Positions 15,576 to 32,605 of a stretch of DNA of 32,605 bases are shown in pieces (within the stretch, counting starts at the first letter, position 1; each line of letters starts with the position of its first letter). Both the position numbers and the translations under genes were made by a program. Below the pieces are notes generated by a model, which saw only the letters and a list, made by a program, of their open reading frames with translations, had not been told where the DNA came from and searched no databases. The DNA is taken from the IMG/VR virus record IMGVR_UViG_3300036978_000177, positions 1 through 32,605 of that record, one strand, 5' to 3'. Origin of the DNA: a virus.

Positions 15576-17005
15576 GTGACTGAGTTGAGGATCTTGAGAT
15601 TGCGGCTCAACACTCCAAGAAAATTGTCCTGTGTGCTGTTGCGTGACTCCAGCACACTCACCACCACATCATCCAGTGTGCCATCGACCAGCAGCCGGAA
15701 GATCTGTGTGGGGTGCTTCTGACCAGTTCTGGCAAGTCTGGCATTGGTCTGGTTGTATTCTTCAGTAGAGAATGGCAGAGTGACCCACACAATTCTGCTG
15801 CCACCACTTTGCATATTCAACCCATGACTAATGGACAGTGGGTGTGCAACTAGCATGGGGATCTTGCCACTGTTCCAATCACCCAGCAGATCAGAGTGAA
15901 ATGCTTTCGCTTGGGGAAATGCTGCGAGGATCCGTTCACGTTCATGGATGTATCGGATCACCACTAGCATGGGTGCCTTCTCTCTGTCCACTAGCTTGTG
16001 CAGTGCTTTGATCTTGGCATCATGCACCTGTGTGACTGTCTTGACCTCACCGGCACCGATGTTGTAGATGTTGGCAAGTGAGTCAGCATAGACTGCACCA
16101 CTGAGCATCTGCTGGAGCTTGCCCACCAGCACACCTTTGTTGACGGCTGTGACCTGTGAGTCTGCCAAGGTCACGATCAACTCCTTTTCGAGTTTCTTAT
16201 ACTTCACCTTCACTGCCGGTGGGAGACTCACTGAGATGTCCTCCACTGTCACCGGGGGGATGTCGAGGTGATCCTCGGATCTCAGAGTCAGCACATACGA
16301 CAGCAGTTTTTCCTCAATCATGCCCTCACAGTCTGCTCTGACTCTCCACTGTCTTTCATGGAAATCAATTGGCTCAAGGTATTGTTGTTTGAAGTTGCCC
16401 ATGTGCTTGCCAAACATGGCACCGTCATCCAGCAGACGGATCTGAGCAAACAGGTCTTGGTGACTGTTGGGGATCGGTGTGCCGGTCAATCCCCAGTGGC
16501 GTTTGAATTTGCTTCTATATTTGCGGAAAAACTGGATCCTCTTGGACTTGGGATCCTTTGCTTTGCTGAGTTCATCCCAGACTATGGTGTCCACCGGCAG
16601 ATCATCTGGGTGTTTGCCATGTAAGATCTTCTTGATGATGCCATGGTCCGTGATGGTGCCATCATTGGCAGTGCGGGGGATGTAGAGAGATTCATAGTTG
16701 AGTGTGTAGATGCAAGCATCACCTCTGGACCATGCTGCCATGCCCTCTGGTGTACGCAGTGACACAATCCTCATCCATGAGAAGTTGTGCCACTTGCTGA
16801 CCTCATCCAACCATGTGAACAATGACACACGCAATGGAGCGATGACCAAGGCACCCTTGCAGGATCCATCAGCAATGTCCTGTGAGAGTCTTGCCAGCAC
16901 CATGGCAGTTTTGCCCAGACCCATGCCAGCAAACAATGCACCAATCGGGTGATCACCCAGATGATCAATGCCAGTCTGCTGATATGGTTTGGGTGTGAAG
17001 ATCAT
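15572..17005 (-). CDS. SNF2-family DEAD/DEAH-like helicase
   Basis: The product is 477 residues. Motif I is FAGMGLGKTAMV (Walker A at 27-33), preceded by the Q-type start PKPYQQTGIDHL. Motif II is VDTIVWDELSKAKD (W-D-E-L at 143-146), motif III is GLTGTP (172-177), and the C-terminal RecA domain ends with TNARLARTGQKHPTQIFRLL, a motif VI of the SNF2 type. Such short SNF2 proteins occur in phage replication clusters next to VRR-NUC nucleases and family A polymerases. The start is the ATG at 17005, ATGA-coupled to the 62-residue gene; the open frame continues upstream but that part overlaps two other genes and has no helicase features. It is the last gene of the leftward operon. Confidence 0.85.
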   Translation of the reverse strand: MIFTPKPYQQTGIDHLGDHPIGALFAGMGLGKTAMVLARLSQDIADGSCKGALVIAPLRVSLFTWLDEVSKWHNFSWMRIVSLRTPEGMAAWSRGDACIYTLNYESLYIPRTANDGTITDHGIIKKILHGKHPDDLPVDTIVWDELSKAKDPKSKRIQFFRKYRSKFKRHWGLTGTPIPNSHQDLFAQIRLLDDGAMFGKHMGNFKQQYLEPIDFHERQWRVRADCEGMIEEKLLSYVLTLRSEDHLDIPPVTVEDISVSLPPAVKVKYKKLEKELIVTLADSQVTAVNKGVLVGKLQQMLSGAVYADSLANIYNIGAGEVKTVTQVHDAKIKALHKLVDREKAPMLVVIRYIHERERILAAFPQAKAFHSDLLGDWNSGKIPMLVAHPLSISHGLNMQSGGSRIVWVTLPFSTEEYNQTNARLARTGQKHPTQIFRLLVDGTLDDVVVSVLESRNSTQDNFLGVLSRNLKILNSVT

Positions 17006-17190
17006 GGTCTGGTGATGTCCAGTGGTGGCAAGGTGCCAAACGGTGTGCGGCACATCTTGATCATCACCTCTCTCGGCATTCTTGTTAGGTGTGCCAGCAG
17101 CATCTTGACAGGTGTGTGGTTGGTGCTGTGCTGGAGGTAGTCGAGTGCTGCGAGTATGCCAGCAGATCTGTCGGTGGTTCTGTGTTTCAT
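17002..17190 (-). CDS. Small basic protein between VRR-NUC and helicase
   Basis: The product is 62 residues (MKHRTTDRSAGILAALDYLQ at the start), rich in His, Arg and Met. Both ends are ATGA overlaps, with the VRR-NUC stop upstream and the helicase start downstream, which is strong evidence that it is translated. The segment AALDYLQHSTNHTPVKMLLAH looks helical. It has no recognised family. Function would most likely be tied to the neighbouring nuclease and helicase. Confidence 0.6.
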   Translation of the reverse strand: MKHRTTDRSAGILAALDYLQHSTNHTPVKMLLAHLTRMPREVMIKMCRTPFGTLPPLDITRP

Positions 17191-17522
17191 TTTGTTTCGT
17201 TTGTTGGTTGTTGATTTTTGCATCTCCTTTTGAGATCTGCGGTGAGTTTGTAGCGCAGAGAAAAGAGAAATGCTGTGGCATCTGTGAAGTTGTCCACCCA
17301 TCCCACCAGACCACCAACAGAACTGATCAGTGCCATCTCATGCTGCTGTGCCTGTGTGGGTTTTTTCCCTGCTGTCTTGATCTCAAGGAACAGCACAGTG
17401 CCACCATGCATGAAGATCCTGTCTGGCACTGCTCGGTGTCCGGGTGATGTGAATTTTCTGGTGTATATGCCAAGACTCTTGGCAAACTGCACAATCTTTT
17501 TCTCTAGTTGTGCCTCGGTCAT
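17187..17522 (-). CDS. VRR-NUC nuclease
   Basis: The product is 111 residues, the size of single-domain phage VRR-NUC proteins. The core is GHRAVPDRIFMHGGTVLFLE followed by IKTAGKKPTQAQQHE, giving Pro33-Asp34, Glu47-x-Lys49 and Gln59, the PD-(D/E)xK catalytic set with the family's closing Q-x-x-x-x-x-x-L region. VRR-NUC enzymes are structure-selective nucleases acting on DNA junctions or flaps, consistent with a role in replication or recombination here. It overlaps the upstream 104-residue gene by four bases and the downstream 62-residue gene by ATGA. Confidence 0.9.
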   Translation of the reverse strand: MTEAQLEKKIVQFAKSLGIYTRKFTSPGHRAVPDRIFMHGGTVLFLEIKTAGKKPTQAQQHEMALISSVGGLVGWVDNFTDATAFLFSLRYKLTADLKRRCKNQQPTNETK

Positions 17523-17833
17523 AGTTCGATGCTGGTGTGGTAAAGGATCTTTTGCTTCAATTCTCTTTTGTCAATCCCGGTCATGTAGTTGAGCAGCCGG
17601 TTGATGGTGTCCACTCGCGGTGGTGCATCAGATCTGAACAACTCCAGAAGGATCAGTTGCTTTGCTTCTGTCTCACTGAGCATCTCATCTCTCAAGAATG
17701 GGTTGAGTGATGACCATGCCACCACTATGCCAGAGTGATTGAGCAGACCAGCATTGTGCAAATTCTGGGCAGATGCTGCACTCACTGAGCGCACATCAGA
17801 GAATATCTTTTTGTTTTTTGGTAGTGTGGTCAT
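17519..17833 (-). CDS. Unknown replication-cluster protein
   Basis: The product is 104 residues. The start TTLPKNKKIFSDVRSVSAAS is basic; the middle has NPFLRDEMLSETEAKQLILL and the end NRLLNYMTGIDKRELKQKIL, all helical. It could be a small DNA-binding protein, but no motif is clear enough to name. It is ATGA-coupled upstream (to the 55-residue gene) and downstream (to VRR-NUC), so it belongs to the same translation chain. Confidence 0.6.
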   Translation of the reverse strand: MTTLPKNKKIFSDVRSVSAASAQNLHNAGLLNHSGIVVAWSSLNPFLRDEMLSETEAKQLILLELFRSDAPPRVDTINRLLNYMTGIDKRELKQKILYHTSIEL

Positions 17834-17997
17834 TGGTTGTTGATGTGTTCAATGGTTTCTTGGATCTTGTTGAGTGCATTGTTGAGTTCATCGATGAGTG
17901 CCTCTTTATCAGCTTCATCGTTGCACTCAATTGCCTCCTCAAGATGTTGGATTGCTGAGAGGATCATGTCCTCAATTTTTCTTTGGTTTGCTGTCAT
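17830..17997 (-). CDS. Small acidic helical protein
   Basis: The product is 55 residues, nearly all helix, with an acidic amphipathic pattern (NQRKIEDMILSAIQHLEEAI, then DKEALIDELNNALNKIQETI). It may form a coiled coil or bind a partner of the replication complex. The stop overlaps the next start by ATGA. Its start codon overlaps the end of a 16 bp direct repeat, CAACACTACAAAAAAT on the minus strand, which also covers the last codons of the polymerase gene; see the repeat entries. Confidence 0.65.
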   Translation of the reverse strand: MTANQRKIEDMILSAIQHLEEAIECNDEADKEALIDELNNALNKIQETIEHINNQ

Positions 17998-18011
17998 TTT
18001 TTGTAGTGTTG
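17996..18011 (-). repeat. 16 bp direct repeat, downstream copy
   Basis: On the minus strand this reads CAACACTACAAAAAAT. The identical sequence lies at 18326-18341. The two copies flank the 97-residue gene. This copy ends in the AT of the start codon of the 55-residue gene. Confidence 0.9.
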
Positions 18012-18025
18012 TTATTAGTTAAACA

Positions 18026-18319
18026 TCATGGCAATTCAACAATCCATTTACCATCTTTCTTCTCGATCCATATTTTTATACGACCAAAACCATCGCTTTC
18101 ATATCTTTCTTGCACACCATCACAAAGGTAATCAGTTAATATTTTGAACAGTTCAAAATCTGGCACTTGCCATGTTGTTAATCCATTATATTCAAATGTT
18201 GCAAATATTTTGTTAGTAGTTTCTGGTGAATCAAATGACCCAAGATGAATACCCGTGAGGTAACCATAGAATTTTGATTCTTTAGTAATAAGTGGTGCTG
18301 TATTGTTTATTGGTGTCAT
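18026..18319 (-). CDS. AT-rich inserted gene of unknown function
   Basis: The product is 97 residues: MTPINNTAPLITKESKFYGY, then a beta/alpha mixture ending in IKIWIEKKDGKWIVELP. The composition is visibly richer in A and T than its neighbours, and it lacks the GATC and TGCCA words so common in this genome. It is flanked by a 16 bp direct repeat, and it interrupts what would otherwise be an ATGA-coupled run of genes. I recognise no family. The start at 18319 was chosen because it follows the leader directly; the open frame extends upstream into the polymerase gene in a different frame. A recently acquired accessory gene is the best reading. Confidence 0.7.
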   Translation of the reverse strand: MTPINNTAPLITKESKFYGYLTGIHLGSFDSPETTNKIFATFEYNGLTTWQVPDFELFKILTDYLCDGVQERYESDGFGRIKIWIEKKDGKWIVELP

Positions 18320-18323
18320 AGTA

Positions 18324-20528
18324 TTATTTTTTGTAGTGTTGAATTGTTGATCCTTCTGCTGCCAGTGGCAGACCTTCTGCCCATGCTGGCATGGTGCAAA
18401 GCAATTGGCAAAGTTCTTCGTGTGTCTGTCCTTCTTCCTGTGTGCAGAGAATCTCATCATGGACAAGCATAAAAGGTTTATATCCAGCACTCTCTGCTGC
18501 CAGCATACCTTCGCGCATGATGTCACCGGCACACGCTTGTGTGGCATTCTCCAGCAACTTGCCACCATACGTGTGGCACCATCCCCATGTGCCAGCACTG
18601 TTGGGGATCACTCCCCAGAAGCGGATCTGTGAAGTCCAGAACTTCGCACTGTTTGTGATGATCTCTGCCTTGGGGTAAATCAGATGATGACCAGATGGCA
18701 ACTTGATGCAGAGTGCTGTGAAGTTGGCAATGGTGCTGCACGACAGGGTGAGCTTGCCAACCTTGTGCTTTGTGTTGGGTGACTTGATCGCTGCCTTGGC
18801 TGCATCATCTAACTGCTTCCAACTTGCCACCACAACCGGGTTCTCTGATCTCCAACTGGTCACTGCTCGGTCAGCCAGATCATCAAAACAAAACTCAGAC
18901 CACTCTGCCTCGGTCTGTGGGTCCACTGTGGTCCATCCCATCTCCTTGGGATCCTTGCCATCGATGAAGTCTGCATGGCGGGGTTTGTAGTCAGCAATCA
19001 TCTGTGGGGTAGGTGCGAACCCATAGGACTCACAGGTGGCGCGGAACTTGGGTCTGCCCATGTTGTAGGAGCAACCCAGCACTGACTGCTTGCCAATGAA
19101 TCGTTCATCCTTGGTGATGTTGCTGACTGGTTTGCCAAAGATCAACGATGCCATGATCTCATAGATTGGCTCATTGTTTCTGAACTTCTGCAGGGTCTTT
19201 TCTTCACCCACCAACCATGGTGCCACTCTTGCCTCAATGGCTGCATAGTCTGCCTGTAGGACCATGCCAGTGCGCGGCTGGATGAAGTTACGGATCACAG
19301 AGATCATCACTTGGAACAGGTCACCAAAGAGTGCCTCCAACTCATCGATGGTGGCACCGGCACACACACAAGCATATGCCAGATCTGAGAATGCTATCGT
19401 GGGTCTGGCGTAGTTCTGCGGCTGGATCCCTTTGCCGGTCCACCGATGGGTGCGCTCGGCACCGTAGATCAATAGCGCACCTCGGACCTTGCCATCTGTG
19501 TCAGCCATGTTGAGCATGGCGGGGATCTTCTTTACAGCAGCAGATCCGATGAGTGAGTAGGTGGTCAGTGCTGCCACTGCCTCTGGTGTGAGTAGGTCCA
19601 CCAGTGGCGAGGTCAACCATGCACTCACGGTGTCTGCTTGCAGATCCTGACCTGTGAATCCTTTGCCCTTCAGCCAGCACTGCATCATCTCATTTTGTGA
19701 TGGGTTGAACCCAGCAGTGATGCTGACTTGCTTTGGTGCTTTTCTGAGCTTGGTCACCGGCAGGGTGATCATCTCGGTGGGGTGTGCCGTCTGTGATTGG
19801 AAAATTGGGATAAGTCTGCTGGTGTATTCACCAATGAGACTCTCAGCATGATGCAGTGCGTTCATCTTGAGTGGGATCCCACGGTCATTCATTCTCAGAT
19901 CTGCATGGAAGTGTGCAGCAGTAGGGTGTGACTGCTTTGTCAGACTGACCAGTGCATGATGCACCAATCTCTCTGCCTCGACATCGCGGCGGCAGTAGTC
20001 AACGAACATCTGAAAGTCGAGTAATGCGTCTGCTGGATAGATCCGTGTGCGAGAATCACCCTTGGTGGGTTTGCGAGGCACACAGAACTGCTGGATCAAC
20101 TTGGTGCCGTCTGTGCTTTTCGGCATTGGGATCTGTAGAAACTCACCAGCCTGTGCCAGTGATGATGGGATTGCTGCCAGACGGCACAGTGCTGCTGTGC
20201 ATCTCCACTGTGTGAGTGCCGGTGCTGTCATCAGTCCGTATTTCAAGAATGCTTTGTGAAACAAGTGCTTGGTGATGGCAAATTCAAATTGGGCATTGTG
20301 CGCCCATATCTCTGCACCACTCTGCACTGCCTGACTGAGCAGTGCCAGTGCATCGGTGTTGTTGTCCATGACTGACCACACCAGTGGTGCCTCATCATTC
20401 TTGGCAATCGCCATGACGAGGATCTCAGCATCATAGTGTGCTGCATATTTGAATGCACCAACATCTTTGAGACTTTCTGGTGAGAATGTCTCATAGTCGA
20501 GATGATAGGTGTCTGGTGTGGTGAGCAT
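18324..20528 (-). CDS. Family A DNA polymerase with 3'-5' exonuclease
   Basis: The product is 734 residues. The exonuclease domain shows ExoI (LDYETFS, Asp11 and Glu13), ExoII (WAHNAQFEFA, about 76-84) and ExoIII (YCRRDVEAE, Tyr178 and Asp182). The polymerase domain shows motif A (LQADYAAIEARV, Asp427), motif B (ERFIGKQSVLGCSYNMG, Lys480 and Tyr488) and motif C (LVHDEIL, His690-Asp691-Glu692). All key residues are present, so a replicative, proofreading polymerase is expected. No 5'-nuclease domain is visible. The stop TAA lies immediately after a stretch that is repeated 330 bases downstream. The gene begins 15 bases after the small coiled-coil gene. Confidence 0.95.
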   Translation of the reverse strand: MLTTPDTYHLDYETFSPESLKDVGAFKYAAHYDAEILVMAIAKNDEAPLVWSVMDNNTDALALLSQAVQSGAEIWAHNAQFEFAITKHLFHKAFLKYGLMTAPALTQWRCTAALCRLAAIPSSLAQAGEFLQIPMPKSTDGTKLIQQFCVPRKPTKGDSRTRIYPADALLDFQMFVDYCRRDVEAERLVHHALVSLTKQSHPTAAHFHADLRMNDRGIPLKMNALHHAESLIGEYTSRLIPIFQSQTAHPTEMITLPVTKLRKAPKQVSITAGFNPSQNEMMQCWLKGKGFTGQDLQADTVSAWLTSPLVDLLTPEAVAALTTYSLIGSAAVKKIPAMLNMADTDGKVRGALLIYGAERTHRWTGKGIQPQNYARPTIAFSDLAYACVCAGATIDELEALFGDLFQVMISVIRNFIQPRTGMVLQADYAAIEARVAPWLVGEEKTLQKFRNNEPIYEIMASLIFGKPVSNITKDERFIGKQSVLGCSYNMGRPKFRATCESYGFAPTPQMIADYKPRHADFIDGKDPKEMGWTTVDPQTEAEWSEFCFDDLADRAVTSWRSENPVVVASWKQLDDAAKAAIKSPNTKHKVGKLTLSCSTIANFTALCIKLPSGHHLIYPKAEIITNSAKFWTSQIRFWGVIPNSAGTWGWCHTYGGKLLENATQACAGDIMREGMLAAESAGYKPFMLVHDEILCTQEEGQTHEELCQLLCTMPAWAEGLPLAAEGSTIQHYKK
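18326..18341 (-). repeat. 16 bp direct repeat, upstream copy
   Basis: This copy of CAACACTACAAAAAAT (minus strand) encodes the end of the polymerase (Gln-His-Tyr-Lys-Lys) and the T of its TAA stop. The other copy is at 17996-18011. If the intervening 330 bases were lost by recombination, the polymerase would end in AAA-AAA-TGA and the TGA would overlap the ATG of the 55-residue gene, as other genes in this operon do. Confidence 0.9.
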
Positions 20529-20543
20529 GGAGCCGGTGGTGTG

Positions 20544-20732
20544 TTATGATTTAGACAGCAGGATCTCGGAATGTAGTGCCTCGACCTCTGACTGGAGTGC
20601 TTCAACTTTGCCCTGCTGGGCTAGGTTGTAAATCCCCAATTGTTCATTGAGGATCCTCATGCCATCATTGTCATTCTGGACAAGGTGGTGGATTGCTTTG
20701 ACGTATTCTTTTATTTTTGATTCTGTGGACAT
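20544..20732 (-). CDS. Small coiled-coil protein
   Basis: The product is 62 residues (MSTESKIKEYVKAIHHLVQN at the start), with a C-terminal heptad pattern VEALQSEVEALHSEILLSKS that should form a coiled coil. It lies between the DUF2815 gene and the polymerase in the same direction. The start was placed at 20732; the frame runs open farther upstream but overlaps the end of the ssDNA-binding protein gene. A partner or dimerisation factor for a replication protein is possible; nothing more can be said. Confidence 0.6.
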   Translation of the reverse strand: MSTESKIKEYVKAIHHLVQNDNDGMRILNEQLGIYNLAQQGKVEALQSEVEALHSEILLSKS

Positions 20733-20796
20733 AAATGTGGTGGTGTTGTTGTCCTCACCACTCCACCCAATGCTGGGCAGAGTGGCAAGGTATTGT

Positions 20797-21417
20797 TTAG
20801 AAGTTCTCAACCTCGATCTCCTCTTCTTCCATCTCCTCATCCTCGAATGCATCAACTGTTACTTTAGCAGCACCGAATGGTTCACCCTTCCGCAGATATT
20901 GGATTGCCTCAATGCTGGCAGAGATGCCCTTTTTGCCTTCATACTCGTAAGCAAAGATGTTGAGAATGGCATTGACGTAGTCACCATTGTTAGGCATCCC
21001 AGTTGATGCTGGCAGTGGTTGACGCTTCTGGTCCACAATCAACACACCGTTGGGTGCATCTGCCACCTTTGTCCCGGCACTGAAAAACATGGTGCTGGCA
21101 TCATATCCCTCGTAGTAGTCACCATCCTCGTTGACCTTAGGACCACGACTGCCAACTTGCTGGTCTGCTTTGCTGTATGCATACATCTCCAGCTTGCCGG
21201 GTGTTTTCCCCCACTTGTCTTTGCAGATGGCAGCAAGAATGACCTTTTCAAAGTCTGTGCTTGGCACACTGACTTTCTTCTCATCGATAGTTGCCTCAAC
21301 AGTAGAGTCAGCAGAGCAGATGCCGGTGAAGGTGTATTTTGGATCACCAGTCTTTGGGGTGTATGGTTTTCTCAAGTTGGAGAAACTGAGACGGACATTT
21401 TTGATTTTGACTTGCAT
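20797..21417 (-). CDS. DUF2815 ssDNA-binding protein
   Basis: The product is 206 residues. It starts MQVKIKNVRLSFSNLRKPYT and contains KVILAAICKDKWGKTPG, YYEGYDASTMFFSAGTKVAD, and NGDYVNAILNIFAYEYEGKK, all typical of the DUF2815 family found beside family A polymerases and DUF2800 nucleases in phages and related to the gp2.5-type OB-fold SSBs. The C-terminus is strongly acidic (DEEMEEEEIEVENF), as single-stranded DNA-binding proteins need for partner contacts. It lies downstream of a terminator repeat, so it may need a promoter of its own; the 21418-21470 leader has only weak candidates. Confidence 0.85.
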   Translation of the reverse strand: MQVKIKNVRLSFSNLRKPYTPKTGDPKYTFTGICSADSTVEATIDEKKVSVPSTDFEKVILAAICKDKWGKTPGKLEMYAYSKADQQVGSRGPKVNEDGDYYEGYDASTMFFSAGTKVADAPNGVLIVDQKRQPLPASTGMPNNGDYVNAILNIFAYEYEGKKGISASIEAIQYLRKGEPFGAAKVTVDAFEDEEMEEEEIEVENF

Positions 21418-21477
21418 ATGTTTGGTATGTTTAATTTTGGTTAATTTGACTGGGTGACAACGTGCCACCCTTCGCCC

Positions 21478-21508
21478 AGAAAACCCCACCCAATTCAATG
21501 GGTGAGGT
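21478..21508 (-). terminator. Intrinsic terminator, repeat copy 1
   Basis: On the minus strand ACCTCACCCA (21508-21499) pairs with TGGGTGGGGT (21492-21483), 10 base pairs with one wobble and a 6-base loop, followed by TTTCT. It lies 26 bases after the stop of the 114-residue gene. A 37-base sequence including this hairpin (21473-21509) is identical to one at 24235-24271. Confidence 0.8.
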
Positions 21509-21534
21509 GTGTCTGTGGGTGGGTGAGTGGTGGT

Positions 21535-21879
21535 TTATGCTTTTGCAAACTGCTTCTTGTATCGTGCAGAGGTTGATTTTTTGCGCTTGTCAATTGCATC
21601 TTGTAGTTCACCAACTGTGCGATAATACTCTGGGTATTGGCTTGCACCAAACCAATTGCCATCTCTGGTGCAGGTCATTGTCACTTTGAACCACACACCA
21701 ATTTGTTCTTCTGTTTTCCAATAGTAACCCTTTGCATCTTCTGGTGCCACTGTGAATTCTGCTGTTGATATGGCAATACACAGACCAATTGATCTGCCCT
21801 TGTTGTCAAGGACACCAAAGTCGATTTGCTCAGTAGTGGCAGGAGTGATTTGTTTGATTGTAACTTTTATTTCTTTCAT
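21535..21879 (-). CDS. Stand-alone small gene, cassette B
   Basis: The product is 114 residues. It starts MKEIKVTIKQITPATTEQID, has a central GRSIGLCIAISTAEFTVAPE and a YYWKTEEQIGVWFKVTMTCT segment, and ends in a basic helix (DAIDKRKKSTSARYKKQFAK). I recognise no family. The gene has its own promoter-like repeat 19 bases upstream and its own terminator, both copied at the 24.2-24.6 kb cassette, which makes it an independent unit set into the early operon. Such isolated early genes in phages often encode host-takeover or anti-defence functions; that is an inference. Confidence 0.75.
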   Translation of the reverse strand: MKEIKVTIKQITPATTEQIDFGVLDNKGRSIGLCIAISTAEFTVAPEDAKGYYWKTEEQIGVWFKVTMTCTRDGNWFGASQYPEYYRTVGELQDAIDKRKKSTSARYKKQFAKA

Positions 21880-21897
21880 GGTTCTGTATGTTTGTTT

Positions 21898-21961
21898 TGG
21901 TTCGGTGCCGTGTGGCGGGGACACACTAGCATACACTTTTGTATACTGTCCAGATTTATTT
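21898..21961 (-). promoter_or_regulatory. Promoter/operator-like repeat, copy B
   Basis: These 64 bases match 24511-24574 at about 53 of 64 positions and lie at the same distance from a start codon. Read on the minus strand the order is TGGACA, an interrupted dyad GTATAC-N6-GTATGC, the words CTAGTGTG, then CCCCGCC-ACACGGC with a small GCC/GGC hairpin. Spacing from TGGACA to TATGCT is 13, too short for a standard sigma-70 promoter, so a phage-specific factor or an operator over a degenerate promoter is likely. Confidence 0.55.
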
Positions 21962-22240
21962 TCAACTATTTTTTACAGGCAAATACTCGGCAAAAACCCA
22001 TGTCCATCTGATGACAGTTCCATTTTTGGCGCAGTCTTGGATGATAAATGGCTCACTCATTTTTGCCAGTGTTTCAATTTGTATTAGGCTTGATGCCCCA
22101 CCTCGGACGCATTCCACCATTTGTTCGGTGTTGCCATCGTCGGTCAGCCTATGTGGGCATTGACTTCCACACGCCTTGAGTTTTTCTGTGATGTCACCGG
22201 CATACGTTACGATGCAGTTCATGATTACTTTATTCTTCAT
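21962..22240 (-). CDS. Small cysteine-containing protein
   Basis: The product is 92 residues, with MKNKVIMNCIVTYAGDITEK at the start and further cysteines in KACGSQCPHR, MVECVRGG and IQDCAKN. The C-x-x-x-C followed by later Cys could bind a metal, but the spacing fits no named family. It is coupled by ATGA to the end of the DUF2800 gene. The AGGAGG seven bases before its start is part of the DUF2800 coding sequence (Gln-Glu-Asp codons), yet it may work as a ribosome site. Its stop lies one base from the cassette B promoter repeat. Confidence 0.6.
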   Translation of the reverse strand: MKNKVIMNCIVTYAGDITEKLKACGSQCPHRLTDDGNTEQMVECVRGGASSLIQIETLAKMSEPFIIQDCAKNGTVIRWTWVFAEYLPVKNS

Positions 22241-23475
22241 AAACAATCCTCCTGTGTGATCTCATCATCAAAGTTGCCAGCACCGGTGACTCTTGCGGGT
22301 CTTGGATCTGACTCCAGCACCAGTTTTGGAGATCCGTCTGACTGACTTACTAGTTGGTCCCAACGTCCCAAGAATCTCTTATTCTGTTTGTCAAGAGGTG
22401 TGCCTTGTTTCTTCAGCACCTTCTCAATCTGTGCCGGTGACAACAGTTTCTTCGGTGCATATTTTTCTGCTGCTGGGATCTTACGCAGCAACTTGTCAAC
22501 CTCTGACTCACTGCTCCACTTTCTGTTGCCCTTGCCACCATCGATGGTCTTCAGACCACAGATGCTTTGCCCTGCTTCGATCAACTCCAGTGTGTTCTCA
22601 TTCAACTCATCAAAGAATTTGCTGATCTCTTTTGAATTCATTGCGATCCGCACACGCACAGCATCAGTGATCTCCACCTTGGCAAACTGCTCCTTGTCAA
22701 TCTCACCCTTGAGTGGGTTGATCTCATCTGGCAGACCATCAAACATGGCACCCACTCTTGTGGCACACACCCGGCGAGCATCACAGAACCGACAAGCATC
22801 GTAAGATGGTGTCAACATCGATGCATCTGCTGCTTTGCTGAGTTTGTATGAGTCAAAGATCCGTTCGCCAATCTCAACCATCAACTCACCCAGTGTGGTG
22901 GTCCACACTTCGGCTGTGCCATCAAATGAGTGATGGCGCGGCTGGTAGATTGCCATGGTCACCGGTGTGGTCTTGGTGAACTTGTGACCCTGTGATTGCA
23001 GCAACTCCACCAGACTGATGGCATAAATTGCCAACTGATCATTGCCCTCTGCACTGACTTTCTCACCCACTCCGTATTTCAAATCAAGGATGTTGATGCC
23101 CTTGTCACCCACCACAGCAAAGTCAATGGTGCCATGCACTGTCTTGTTGTAGTAGAGTGGCACTCTTTGCTCAGTGTATACTGTGGCACCACCGTGCATC
23201 TGTTCTGCAAGTTCATCTGCATAATCGATGTATCCACCAAGATGCTCCAGAAATGACTCTGGGATCTCGGACCGGACTATGTCACCCTTGAGACAGCGAT
23301 CTGCCCAGTCGTGTGCCTCTGTGCCTTCAAGACTGTAGGCTGTGTCAACCTTGGCAGGGATCATCCCTGCTGCCTTGCACTGGGCGATGTATGCCACAGA
23401 TCCGGCACATCCTCTCCACTGCTTGGCAGCAGATGCTCCCCAAGCGTAGTGGGTATTTTCTGGTGGTGTGTTCAT
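22237..23475 (-). CDS. DUF2800 nuclease (Cas4/AddB-like, Fe-S)
   Basis: The product is 412 residues. It shows the PD-(D/E)xK exonuclease pattern of the DUF2800 family: LEGTEAHDWAD (His55), HGTIDFAVVGD (Asp118), NILDLKYG (Asp131, Lys133) and EGNDQLAIYA (Gln147). An N-terminal cysteine (WRGCAGS, Cys23) and a C-terminal YDACRFCDARRVC cluster (Cys228, Cys231, Cys237) are the four ligands expected for a 4Fe-4S cluster of the Cas4/AddB type. In phages this enzyme travels with DUF2815 and a family A polymerase. It probably processes DNA ends during replication or recombination. Its start overlaps the stop of the small membrane protein gene. Confidence 0.9.
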   Translation of the reverse strand: MNTPPENTHYAWGASAAKQWRGCAGSVAYIAQCKAAGMIPAKVDTAYSLEGTEAHDWADRCLKGDIVRSEIPESFLEHLGGYIDYADELAEQMHGGATVYTEQRVPLYYNKTVHGTIDFAVVGDKGINILDLKYGVGEKVSAEGNDQLAIYAISLVELLQSQGHKFTKTTPVTMAIYQPRHHSFDGTAEVWTTTLGELMVEIGERIFDSYKLSKAADASMLTPSYDACRFCDARRVCATRVGAMFDGLPDEINPLKGEIDKEQFAKVEITDAVRVRIAMNSKEISKFFDELNENTLELIEAGQSICGLKTIDGGKGNRKWSSESEVDKLLRKIPAAEKYAPKKLLSPAQIEKVLKKQGTPLDKQNKRFLGRWDQLVSQSDGSPKLVLESDPRPARVTGAGNFDDEITQEDCL

Positions 23476-24204: not shown

Positions 24205-24239
24205 AGTTTGGTAGTTGTAAATGGTTAGATGTTACGCCC

Positions 24240-24270
24240 AGAAAACCCCACCCAATTCAATGGGTGAGGT
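24240..24270 (-). terminator. Intrinsic terminator, repeat copy 2
   Basis: This is the same hairpin as at 21478-21508: ACCTCACCCA (24270-24261) pairs with TGGGTGGGGT (24254-24245), loop of 6, then TTTTC. It lies 19 bases after the stop of the 66-residue gene. Thirty-seven bases (24235-24271) are identical to copy 1. Confidence 0.8.
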
Positions 24271-24289
24271 GATGCTGTGGGTGGTTGGA

Positions 24290-24490
24290 TCAATCTGCGA
24301 TCATTGACCACTCTGCTGCACTTGGGAAAGCTTGATCTTGATCACCATGCATTAGCGCACCATTATATTTGCCAATCTCACATGACTCAAGTCCTTCATA
24401 GTTGCTTTTGCTCCAGTTGTTTTCCCAGTCAGCGTGTTTTGCTGCGATGTTTGCATTAACTATTTCTACGATTTGTTGAAGTGATTTCAT
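24290..24490 (-). CDS. Stand-alone small acidic gene, cassette A
   Basis: The product is 66 residues, MKSLQQIVEIVNANIAAKHA at the start and LMHGDQDQAFPSAAEWSMIA near the end, with 10 acidic and 4 basic residues. I recognise no family. It is unrelated in sequence to the 114-residue gene of cassette B but sits between the same upstream repeat (20 bases before its start) and the same terminator. The size, acidity and isolated transcription unit are those expected of phage inhibitors of host enzymes or of defence systems; this is an inference and not shown by any motif. Confidence 0.75.
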   Translation of the reverse strand: MKSLQQIVEIVNANIAAKHADWENNWSKSNYEGLESCEIGKYNGALMHGDQDQAFPSAAEWSMIAD

Positions 24491-24510
24491 ATTGTTTGTG
24501 TGGTTCGATT

Positions 24511-24574
24511 TGGTTCAGTGCCGTCCGGCGGGGATAGACTAGCATACTTTTTTGTATATCGTCAACATTTATTT
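24511..24574 (-). promoter_or_regulatory. Promoter/operator-like repeat, copy A
   Basis: This copy reads on the minus strand TTGACG, then an interrupted dyad ATATAC-N6-GTATGC, CTAGTCTA, then CCCCGCC-GGACGGC. It lies between the primase gene and the 66-residue gene. The TTGACG and the TATGCT are 13 bases apart, as in copy B. The conserved part extends into the transcribed leader (GCC/GGC mini-hairpin, then GAACCAAA), suggesting control both of transcription and of the mRNA. Confidence 0.55.
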
Positions 24575-24619
24575 GCGTATTTTTTCACATTTGTTGAAAA
24601 TAGTTCTACAGCCTATATA

Positions 24620-27271: not shown

Positions 27272-27572
27272 CCAATGGTTTTTTCTTAGGGCAGCAAAAT
27301 ATGCCTGCCCTACCCACTGCCCCCCAAAAAGCCATTGGTGCATATGGGTTTGCGGGGATTTAGGGCAGAGGGCAGTGATTTGTACTTCTATTAGTGGAGG
27401 GTAAAAATATAGTATATATTGGGTTTTTTCATGTGTTCTTCATGTTATCTCTTTATATATGGGTACAGAAGTGCTGCCCTCTGCCCTTTTCTGTTAGATT
27501 TGGCAAAATTGCTATACATACCAATGACTTTTTGAAGGGCAGTGGGTAGGGCAGTGAAAATTCCACTGCCCT
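27272..27572. repeat. Nested inverted repeats, candidate replication origin
   Basis: CTGCCCTACCCACTGCCC (27305-27322) returns as a perfect complement at 27537-27554; with its flank the arms are 34 bp (27305-27338 against 27521-27554, 31 matches). Inside are a 14 bp perfect pair (27362-27375 with 27474-27487) and a 6 bp pair (27384-27389 with 27467-27472), and at the ends two local hairpins (27287-27312 and 27548-27572). The unit GGGCAG/CTGCCC occurs ten times, five in each orientation, in doublets spaced 7 or 12 bp. The centre (about 27,390-27,460) is AT-rich with TATATATT. No gene is present. The layout resembles an origin with protein-binding iterons and an unwinding region, next to the primase-helicase gene. 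Confidence 0.7.

Positions 27573-28055: not shown

Positions 28056-28068
<13 letters not shown>
27823..28068 (+). CDS. Winged-helix DNA-binding regulator
   Basis: The product is 81 residues. After an N-terminal helix it has VLARVSGISARAIAQDMNDT and RVNVTNSLYVLSLKGFVVAD, followed by a wing RSTAPARYILTPLGKEAQRC, a MarR-like winged helix-turn-helix of minimal size. It is the first rightward gene after the origin-like region and lies under a strong promoter. It could regulate the switch to the late genes or bind the GGGCAG sites; both are inference. It overlaps the MuF gene by 13 bases. The AAGGAGG seven bases before the MuF start lies inside this coding sequence. Confidence 0.8.
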
Positions 28069-29734
<1,666 letters not shown>

Positions 29735-29750
<16 letters not shown>

Positions 29751-31863: not shown

Positions 31864-32605
31864 ATGACGAAAGACGAGAAAAAAGGAGTAGTCACTCCAC
31901 TGCCAGCATCATATCGCACACAGGACTTTGACCTTGCCAATGTCACACCAGAACAGGTGCGGTCAATCCTCCGCAATGTTCGCACCGGCAGACTTGAAGA
32001 TCAAGACAGACTCTTCCGTCTGATGCTCGACTCATGGAGCAGATTGAGAAAGTGTTTGAATGAGGTCAGTGGAGCAGTGGCATCTCTGCCCATCCAGATC
32101 TCACCAGCAATCAGAGAAGGTGAAGAAGAAGCAACACCAGAGGCACTCAGGATCCATGAGGTGGTTGAACGTGCGCTGGAGTCATATGCACCCAGACCAG
32201 CATACTTAGAACTGGATGGCATGGGGATGATCAAGGCAATGGTGGACGCATATGCCAAGGGCATCAGTGTGGTGGAGATCCTGTGGCATGTAGAGAATGG
32301 TGTGGTGTCCCCTCGGTGCTTCTGTCCGGTCCCTGCAAAATATCTTGCATATCCCCAAGACTCAAATCAGATAGACAGACTGATGGTGTCACCTGATGGT
32401 GTGGCAATGGGTAATCTCCAAGACTTTCCAGCAGATAAATTCTTGATTGGCATCTGGCAACAAGGTGGCATTCATCCCATCCACTGCGGCAATCTCAGAG
32501 CATTGACCAAGCAGTGGCTCGGTGCCATCTATGGCATGGGTTGGTTGATGCAGTATGCACAGTTGTTTGGCATCCCATGGCGGCACATTGAGACAGACGG
32601 CAGCG
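31864..32605 (+). CDS. Mu gp29-like portal protein, N-terminal part
   Basis: The first 247 codons of the portal gene lie here; the rest is at 2-1024 across the circular join. The sequence shows VRSILRNVRTGRLEDQDRLF, a L-N-E-V-S-G-A-V-A-S-L-P region and AKGISVVEILWHVENGV with the KGIS-x-x-E-x-x-W pattern of DUF935 portals. The start ATG at 31864 was chosen because it is the first in the frame after the terminase stop and gives the usual N-terminal length. The leader has no Shine-Dalgarno. Confidence 0.9.
   Translation, partial: MTKDEKKGVVTPLPASYRTQDFDLANVTPEQVRSILRNVRTGRLEDQDRLFRLMLDSWSRLRKCLNEVSGAVASLPIQISPAIREGEEEATPEALRIHEVVERALESYAPRPAYLELDGMGMIKAMVDAYAKGISVVEILWHVENGVVSPRCFCPVPAKYLAYPQDSNQIDRLMVSPDGVAMGNLQDFPADKFLIGIWQQGGIHPIHCGNLRALTKQWLGAIYGMGWLMQYAQLFGIPWRHIETDGS
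32472..32605. repeat. Terminal overlap, right copy
   Basis: This copy matches 1-134 at 133 of 134 positions. Trimming it gives the 32,471 bp circle. The one difference (a at 32479, g at 8) may be a strain polymorphism or a read error. Confidence 0.95.

Follow-up and report, generated by a model that had tools for sequence, protein, structure and literature searches.

A 97-residue orphan gene between 16-bp direct repeats behind a phage DNA polymerase gene: probable gain at an overlapping gene junction

In the virus record IMGVR_UViG_3300036978_000177 a small AT-rich gene separates the gene for a family A DNA polymerase from a gene of 55 residues, and the same 16 bases occur at the end of the former and at the start of the latter. 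This raises the question whether the small gene was gained here or lost elsewhere, and how a junction could be doubled so precisely. The whole record of 32,605 nt was analysed and is called the window in the following. The features concerned are listed in Table 1.

Table 1. Features at the junction downstream of the polymerase gene (positions in the window).
Feature	Position	Strand	Remarks
Family A DNA polymerase, 734 aa	18324..20528	minus	DNA_pol_A, PHROG 17
Repeat copy 1, CAACACTACAAAAAAT	18326..18341	minus	inside 3' end of polymerase gene
Inserted stretch, 314 nt	18012..18325	minus	missing from sister phage G001; blastn gap 314 in window, overlap 16 in relative
97-residue orphan ORF	18026..18319	minus	start 4 nt after polymerase stop
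Repeat copy 2, CAACACTACAAAAAAT	17996..18011	minus	leader and AT of ATG, 55-residue gene
55-residue gene	17830..17997	minus	homologue (54 aa) in G001 only, among relatives read
104-residue gene	17519..17833	minus	conserved beside polymerase in relatives; ATGA overlap with 55-residue gene
111-residue endonuclease-like protein	17187..17522	minus	PHROG 93; weak Hjc match; ATGA overlap with 104-residue gene

A first-pass annotation had reported 16-bp direct repeats where the polymerase gene ends and where the 55-residue gene starts, and both exact copies were located on the minus strand. They are identical at 16 of 16 positions and the outer base differs at both edges, so that the repeat cannot be extended by even a single base. 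The exact 16-mer CAACACTACAAAAAAT occurs no more than twice in the whole record. If up to two mismatches are allowed, three matches are obtained, compared to 0.01 on average when the sequence was shuffled 100 times by dinucleotides. Moreover, when the local 800 bases were shuffled 1000 times, the longest exact repeat reached 15 nt once and 16 nt never. Over the entire record 76 pairs of identical 16-mers lie at most 2 kb apart (0.02 on average in 100 shuffles). The 60 listed pairs fall into four places, one being the junction repeat and the others short repeats, in tandem or nearly so, at about 12.7, 24.0 and 28.9 kb. A third, imperfect copy (81%) is located at 17814-17829, at the start of the 104-residue gene. 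It was rejected as part of the event: it encodes TLPK, kept or nearly kept in relatives, and as a sequence it is best read as a coding coincidence.

The stretch between the two copies is nearly filled by one ORF, 97 codons and the stop accounting for 294 of the 314 nt (94%). When the insert was shuffled 5000 times by dinucleotides, an ORF of at least 97 codons arose in 7 cases. The GC content at codon positions 1, 2 and 3 is 0.42, 0.37 and 0.21, a fall that resembles the pattern of an AT-rich coding gene. In agreement with the AT-rich 97-residue gene described before, the lowest GC content of the record profile, 0.330, is found in the 300-base segment 18001-18300.

Merging the repeats on paper had led to the prediction of a junction at which the polymerase gene and the next gene are coupled by ATGA. 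This very junction is found naturally in a relative, G001 (also L003; IMGVR_UViG_3300027212_000019), whose polymerase is 92% identical to that of the window. Here the 16-mer is present once and the polymerase gene adjoins the 54-residue homologue of the 55-residue gene directly, the kind of relative that the first-pass annotation had proposed to look for. The junction reads ...CAACACTACAAAAAATGA..., also given as ...GGATCAACAATTCAACACTACAAAAAATGACACCAAACC..., and the polymerase stop TGA overlaps with the following ATG as ATGA. In a blastn comparison the matches break at 18011|18326 in the window, and their G001 counterparts share exactly 16 nt. The insertion spares both neighbours. The polymerase still ends with ...QHYKK, its last codons being CAA CAC TAC AAA AAA followed by a TAA stop, and the 55-residue gene retains ATG and leader. 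The ATGA coupling claimed for the next three junctions is likewise seen in the window (55-residue/104-residue, 104-residue/111-residue and 111-residue/62-codon ORF).

Flanking repeats of this kind were otherwise not found at the breakpoints surveyed. Eight pairwise comparisons of the window, G001, G002 and G003 were covered, with matches below 150 nt and gaps of at least 3000 nt dropped, a procedure that would miss diverged repeats. A flanking repeat of at least 8 nt was found at 1 of 36 breakpoints between collinear matches, which is the one at the polymerase junction.

Seven relatives with a polymerase identity of at least 51% were read in total. A 97-residue gene common to all relatives, named at the outset as the case against the insertion, was not found: all six readable junctions (G001, G003, G004, G005, G006 and G007) are without it. 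The seventh and second-closest relative, G002, ends inside the polymerase at residue 694, leaving its junction unreadable. The 97-residue protein was found in none of the seven relative records in a search that had no positive control. The polymerase gene is followed by a gene of the 104-residue family in G003, G004, G005 and G006 and by the endonuclease gene in G007. In a tree of the polymerases the window and G001 are sisters (100/99), and G003, G004 and all others branch outside this pair; support for the G002 fork is 81/85, and long branches were flagged among the four distant rows. As the insert is missing from the readable relatives and the outgroups branch outside, a single gain in the window lineage is the simplest history.

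The start of the 97-residue gene, ATGACACCAA, resembles the start of the 55-residue homologue in G001, ATGACACCAAACC, which could point to a longer duplication that has decayed. Since similar starts occur elsewhere, ATGAACACACCA at 23475 and ATGACACCT in L166 (G006), the likeness may also have come about by chance.

The 16-mer consists of the C-terminal codons of the polymerase and of an A-rich leader that ends in the AT of the next start codon. At 28 of 29 hand-chosen ATG starts of the window an SD-like 4-mer is missing from the 15 upstream bases. At most positions upstream of the starts A is more frequent than any other base, and at position -3 it is found in 18 of the 29. The missing SD-like 4-mers together with the A-rich leaders suggest a host without SD-led initiation, such as a member of the Bacteroidota. 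A-rich initiation is known in Flavobacterium johnsoniae and Bacteroidetes (PMC6847099), and the leaders of the window resemble it. At an overlapping junction of this type, both neighbours would survive an insertion only if the 16 nt remain on each side. Since these nucleotides serve two genes, selection on the outcome would suffice for a doubled junction, and an enzyme with a 16-bp footprint would not have to be invoked.

We consider it likely that a foreign, AT-rich stretch with a single gene entered the window lineage after its split from the sister G001, at the exact overlap of the polymerase and the 55-residue gene, whereby the 16 junction nucleotides were doubled. Directly seen are the single-copy empty site of the sister, the 16-nt overlap at the breakpoint, the readable relatives without insert and the intact ends of the neighbours. 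The join itself would have been non-site-specific, by break repair or by template switching during replication. The phage encodes an exonuclease (PHROG 69) and a Gp2.5-like ssDNA binding/annealing protein (PHROG 112), which makes short-homology joins plausible, and both proteins perhaps assisted. The duplication would have been retained because the 16 nt do double duty as polymerase C-terminus and as leader of the next gene. The 97-residue gene, starting 4 nt past the polymerase stop, is presumably read from the same predicted operon. An illegitimate join with junction duplication is thus the favoured reading, with a donor-borne repeat as its main rival. With respect to the original proposal of a precise gain by either duplication or homologous insertion, the empty site in G001 bears out the precise insertion; the second copy of the repeat may stem from duplication on insertion or from a donor.

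According to this main rival, a partner phage already had the 97-residue gene beside the 16-mer and passed it on by a crossover within the short identity. Such homologous transfer is what the authors propose for Corndog gene 14 (PMC4351075) and for LRRHood (PMC3029335), and the exonuclease and annealing proteins encoded by the phage would suit it as well. However, PMC3945230 gives minimal pairing lengths of 23-27 bp for Red-beta and of 31-34 bp for RecA. The repeat of 16 bp is shorter than either, and by these figures crossover insertion and crossover loss are both expected to be rare. Moreover, with homologous transfer the duplication would merely have originated in another phage, and a donor was not found in the viral_contigs, genome_contigs, phage or plasmid searches. 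The 97-residue protein gave no tblastn match at E ≤ 1 in 50,697 phage records, nor in plasmids. In viral_contigs one stretch fitted the pattern and none was confirmed; in genome_contigs 41 stretches were obtained, and the one match among them, 17 residues long and located in an Idiomarina contig, was taken as chance and not as a relative. Close DNA relatives of the window were not matched among named phages. A pattern scan of viral_contigs for the polymerase end gave mostly unrelated contigs among the matches listed and was left out. We regard homologous transfer from such a donor as rather unlikely.

The opposite direction, with the gene and both repeats ancestral and the relatives deleted between the repeats, would yield exactly the junction type of G001. 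Counted on the polymerase tree, it would however need about five losses for a gene as old as the group; for a gene going back only to the common ancestor of the window and G001, one gain and one loss would be required. Five of five readable relatives outside the sister pair are without the gene, and the insert occupies the part of the record with the highest AT content. An ancestral gene lost by the relatives is hence quite improbable. A loss of the gene from the window by recombination between the repeats, also raised by the first-pass annotation, may occur; a literature search on repeat-mediated deletion in T7 gave no fitting paper among those listed.

A small mobile element that duplicated 16 bp of its target, either MPME-like or a transposon remnant, would account for the single ORF, the precise ends and the direct target repeat. 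Such an element appears very doubtful given that terminal inverted repeats of the insert are not in excess over shuffles (P 0.54, 0.57 and 0.25 at 30, 40 and 60 nt), that profile searches with the 97-residue protein gave no transposase family, and that the insert is present in a single copy without relatives elsewhere in viral_contigs, genome_contigs, phages or plasmids. A folded structure above shuffles was not found in the insert either. The MPMEs of mycobacteriophages (PMC4351075; PMC3029335) share with the insert the very small size, the single ORF and the visible empty site. They differ by their length of about 440 bp, inverted repeats, a 6-bp addition and many sites, and the ORF of the window is not found among the 50,697 phage records (tblastn, E ≤ 1).

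An assembly artefact or a chance ORF, conceivable for a metagenomic contig and an ORF without relatives, is barely credible: length and codon-position pattern of the ORF are unlike noise, the record closes on itself via a 134-bp end repeat, and a repeat of 16 bp should be too short to cause a false join by itself, usual assembly k-mers being longer than 16 bp.

The function of the 97-residue product was approached by profile and structure searches. Nothing exceeded the curated cut-offs of Pfam and NCBIfam, and PADLOC gave no match. A weak Pfam match concerns the crAss muzzle C-terminus (E 0.0019, 19.1 bits compared to a cut-off of 27); the best E values were 0.021 in PHROGs and 0.092 in the PDB searched by sequence. 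AlphaFold2 was run on the single sequence and resulted in a best model with a pLDDT of 72.1, the other four ranging from 37 to 57. The best model has three strands, a helix and two strands, which is the order of an OB fold. Foldseek gave nothing significant with this model (best E 0.14 in the PDB and 0.012 in BFVD). VIA-align reached a best Z of 5.8 with an rmsd of 2.9 over 63 residues, where the guide value of the tool is 8. Matches at Z 4 to 5.8, all below this guide value, include RuvB-like OB domains, baculovirus LEF-3 and ssDNA-binding proteins; by our own assignment OB-fold domains make up 43 of 50 rows, which is a lead only. The modelled product is perhaps a small OB-fold-like protein, and at a guess a small accessory protein that binds ssDNA, encoded next to the polymerase.

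Single orphan genes placed between conserved genes are familiar from morons and from T4-type promoter/stem-loop cassettes. The insert may differ from these, as no clear promoter or terminator was seen in it. One weak promoter-like site overlaps repeat copy 1 and is the only one in 17000-21000, where 4.4 were expected. A terminator-like site was not found on the minus strand of the insert. The term PeSL is used in PMC4503421.

The closest known case is Corndog gene 14 of the Cluster O mycobacteriophages, flanked by a 17-bp direct repeat that is found once, at the junction of two genes, in four relatives (PMC4351075). As in the window, one small gene is restricted to one phage and its short flanking repeat is single-copy in relatives. 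In contrast to the window, the phage group is an unrelated one and gene 14 is Xis-like, whereas the gene described here is an orphan. In the window, moreover, the outgroups speak for a gain, and the repeat falls together with both an ATGA overlap and an A-rich start leader. LRRHood genes 43-46 lie between direct repeats, one copy closing the gene before them and the other preceding the gene behind, and relatives have this sequence once (PMC3029335). The likeness is limited by the repeat length of 29 bp, the number of four genes and a cargo that has known homologues. YungJamal gene 60 and Island3 gene 68 also show the gain of a gene at a junction with a doubled boundary (PMC4351075; PMC3029335). 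They are looser cases, with an imperfect 24-bp repeat or shared 3' ends of about 50-60 bp, and YungJamal gene 60 is transcribed against its neighbours. Taken together, the insertion in the window is of a known kind in an unrelated phage group, with a better resolved direction and unusually clean evidence.

Small orphan genes abound in phages, and their gain is rarely caught with filled site, empty site and direction at once. The junction of the window suggests a reason for short repeats, namely that the repeated bases serve two genes. For this reading of the duplication the literature search returned no published statement, which is weak evidence of absence. The repeat is a simple signature by which genes gained recently can be spotted in phage genomes that lack annotation, and it allows reversibility to be tested. 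One may speculate, though we would not expect it to hold, that overlapping junctions are a general entry port for phage genes, that end/start repeats of ~16-30 bp as in the window, Corndog and LRRHood are the fossil of a gain, and that a common joining mechanism, with duplications of such a length, maybe stands behind them. If true, such repeat fossils could be searched for systematically in unrelated phages.

The region downstream of the polymerase shows further variation. As the 55-residue gene is limited to the window and G001 among the records read, the junction has been altered more than once. The 104-residue gene is without known family and lies downstream in the polymerase cluster of five relatives (G001, G003, G004, G005 and G006); the model of its product consists of five helices and had no significant match in a PDB search. 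In G003 (L005) the ATGA of the polymerase offers this gene a start that reads MINQQNKM, and the 55-residue homologue of G001 ends with INQ. The start in G003 may thus be the scar of a deletion of the 55-residue gene. In L166 (G006) an ORF between the endonuclease and helicase genes contains repeats of a KAY/QSE motif that is roughly 15-16 residues long.

Several observations concern other parts of the record. Its ends, 1-134 and 32472-32605, consist of the same 134 bases (99%), and this stretch is internal in the G001 contig. Based on both features the record is probably a complete genome, either circularly closing or terminally redundant. Two small-gene cassettes on the minus strand (21473-21974 and 24235-24585) share one pair of elements, a promoter-like one of 85 bp upstream (80% identical between them) and a terminator-like stem-loop followed by T's of 53 bp downstream (92% identical). 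The genes between or beside these elements are different ones in G001 and G002, a pattern also seen with morons and T4-type promoter/stem-loop cassettes. The N-terminal 294 residues encoded by the minor head protein gene (28056-29750) are 95% conserved in G001 and the remainder is replaced, the change point being a 24-bp tandem repeat array (28938-29057). Finally, an AT-rich stretch contains a 35-nt inverted repeat (27305-27339 and 27520-27554) with 91% complementarity and arms 180 nt apart.
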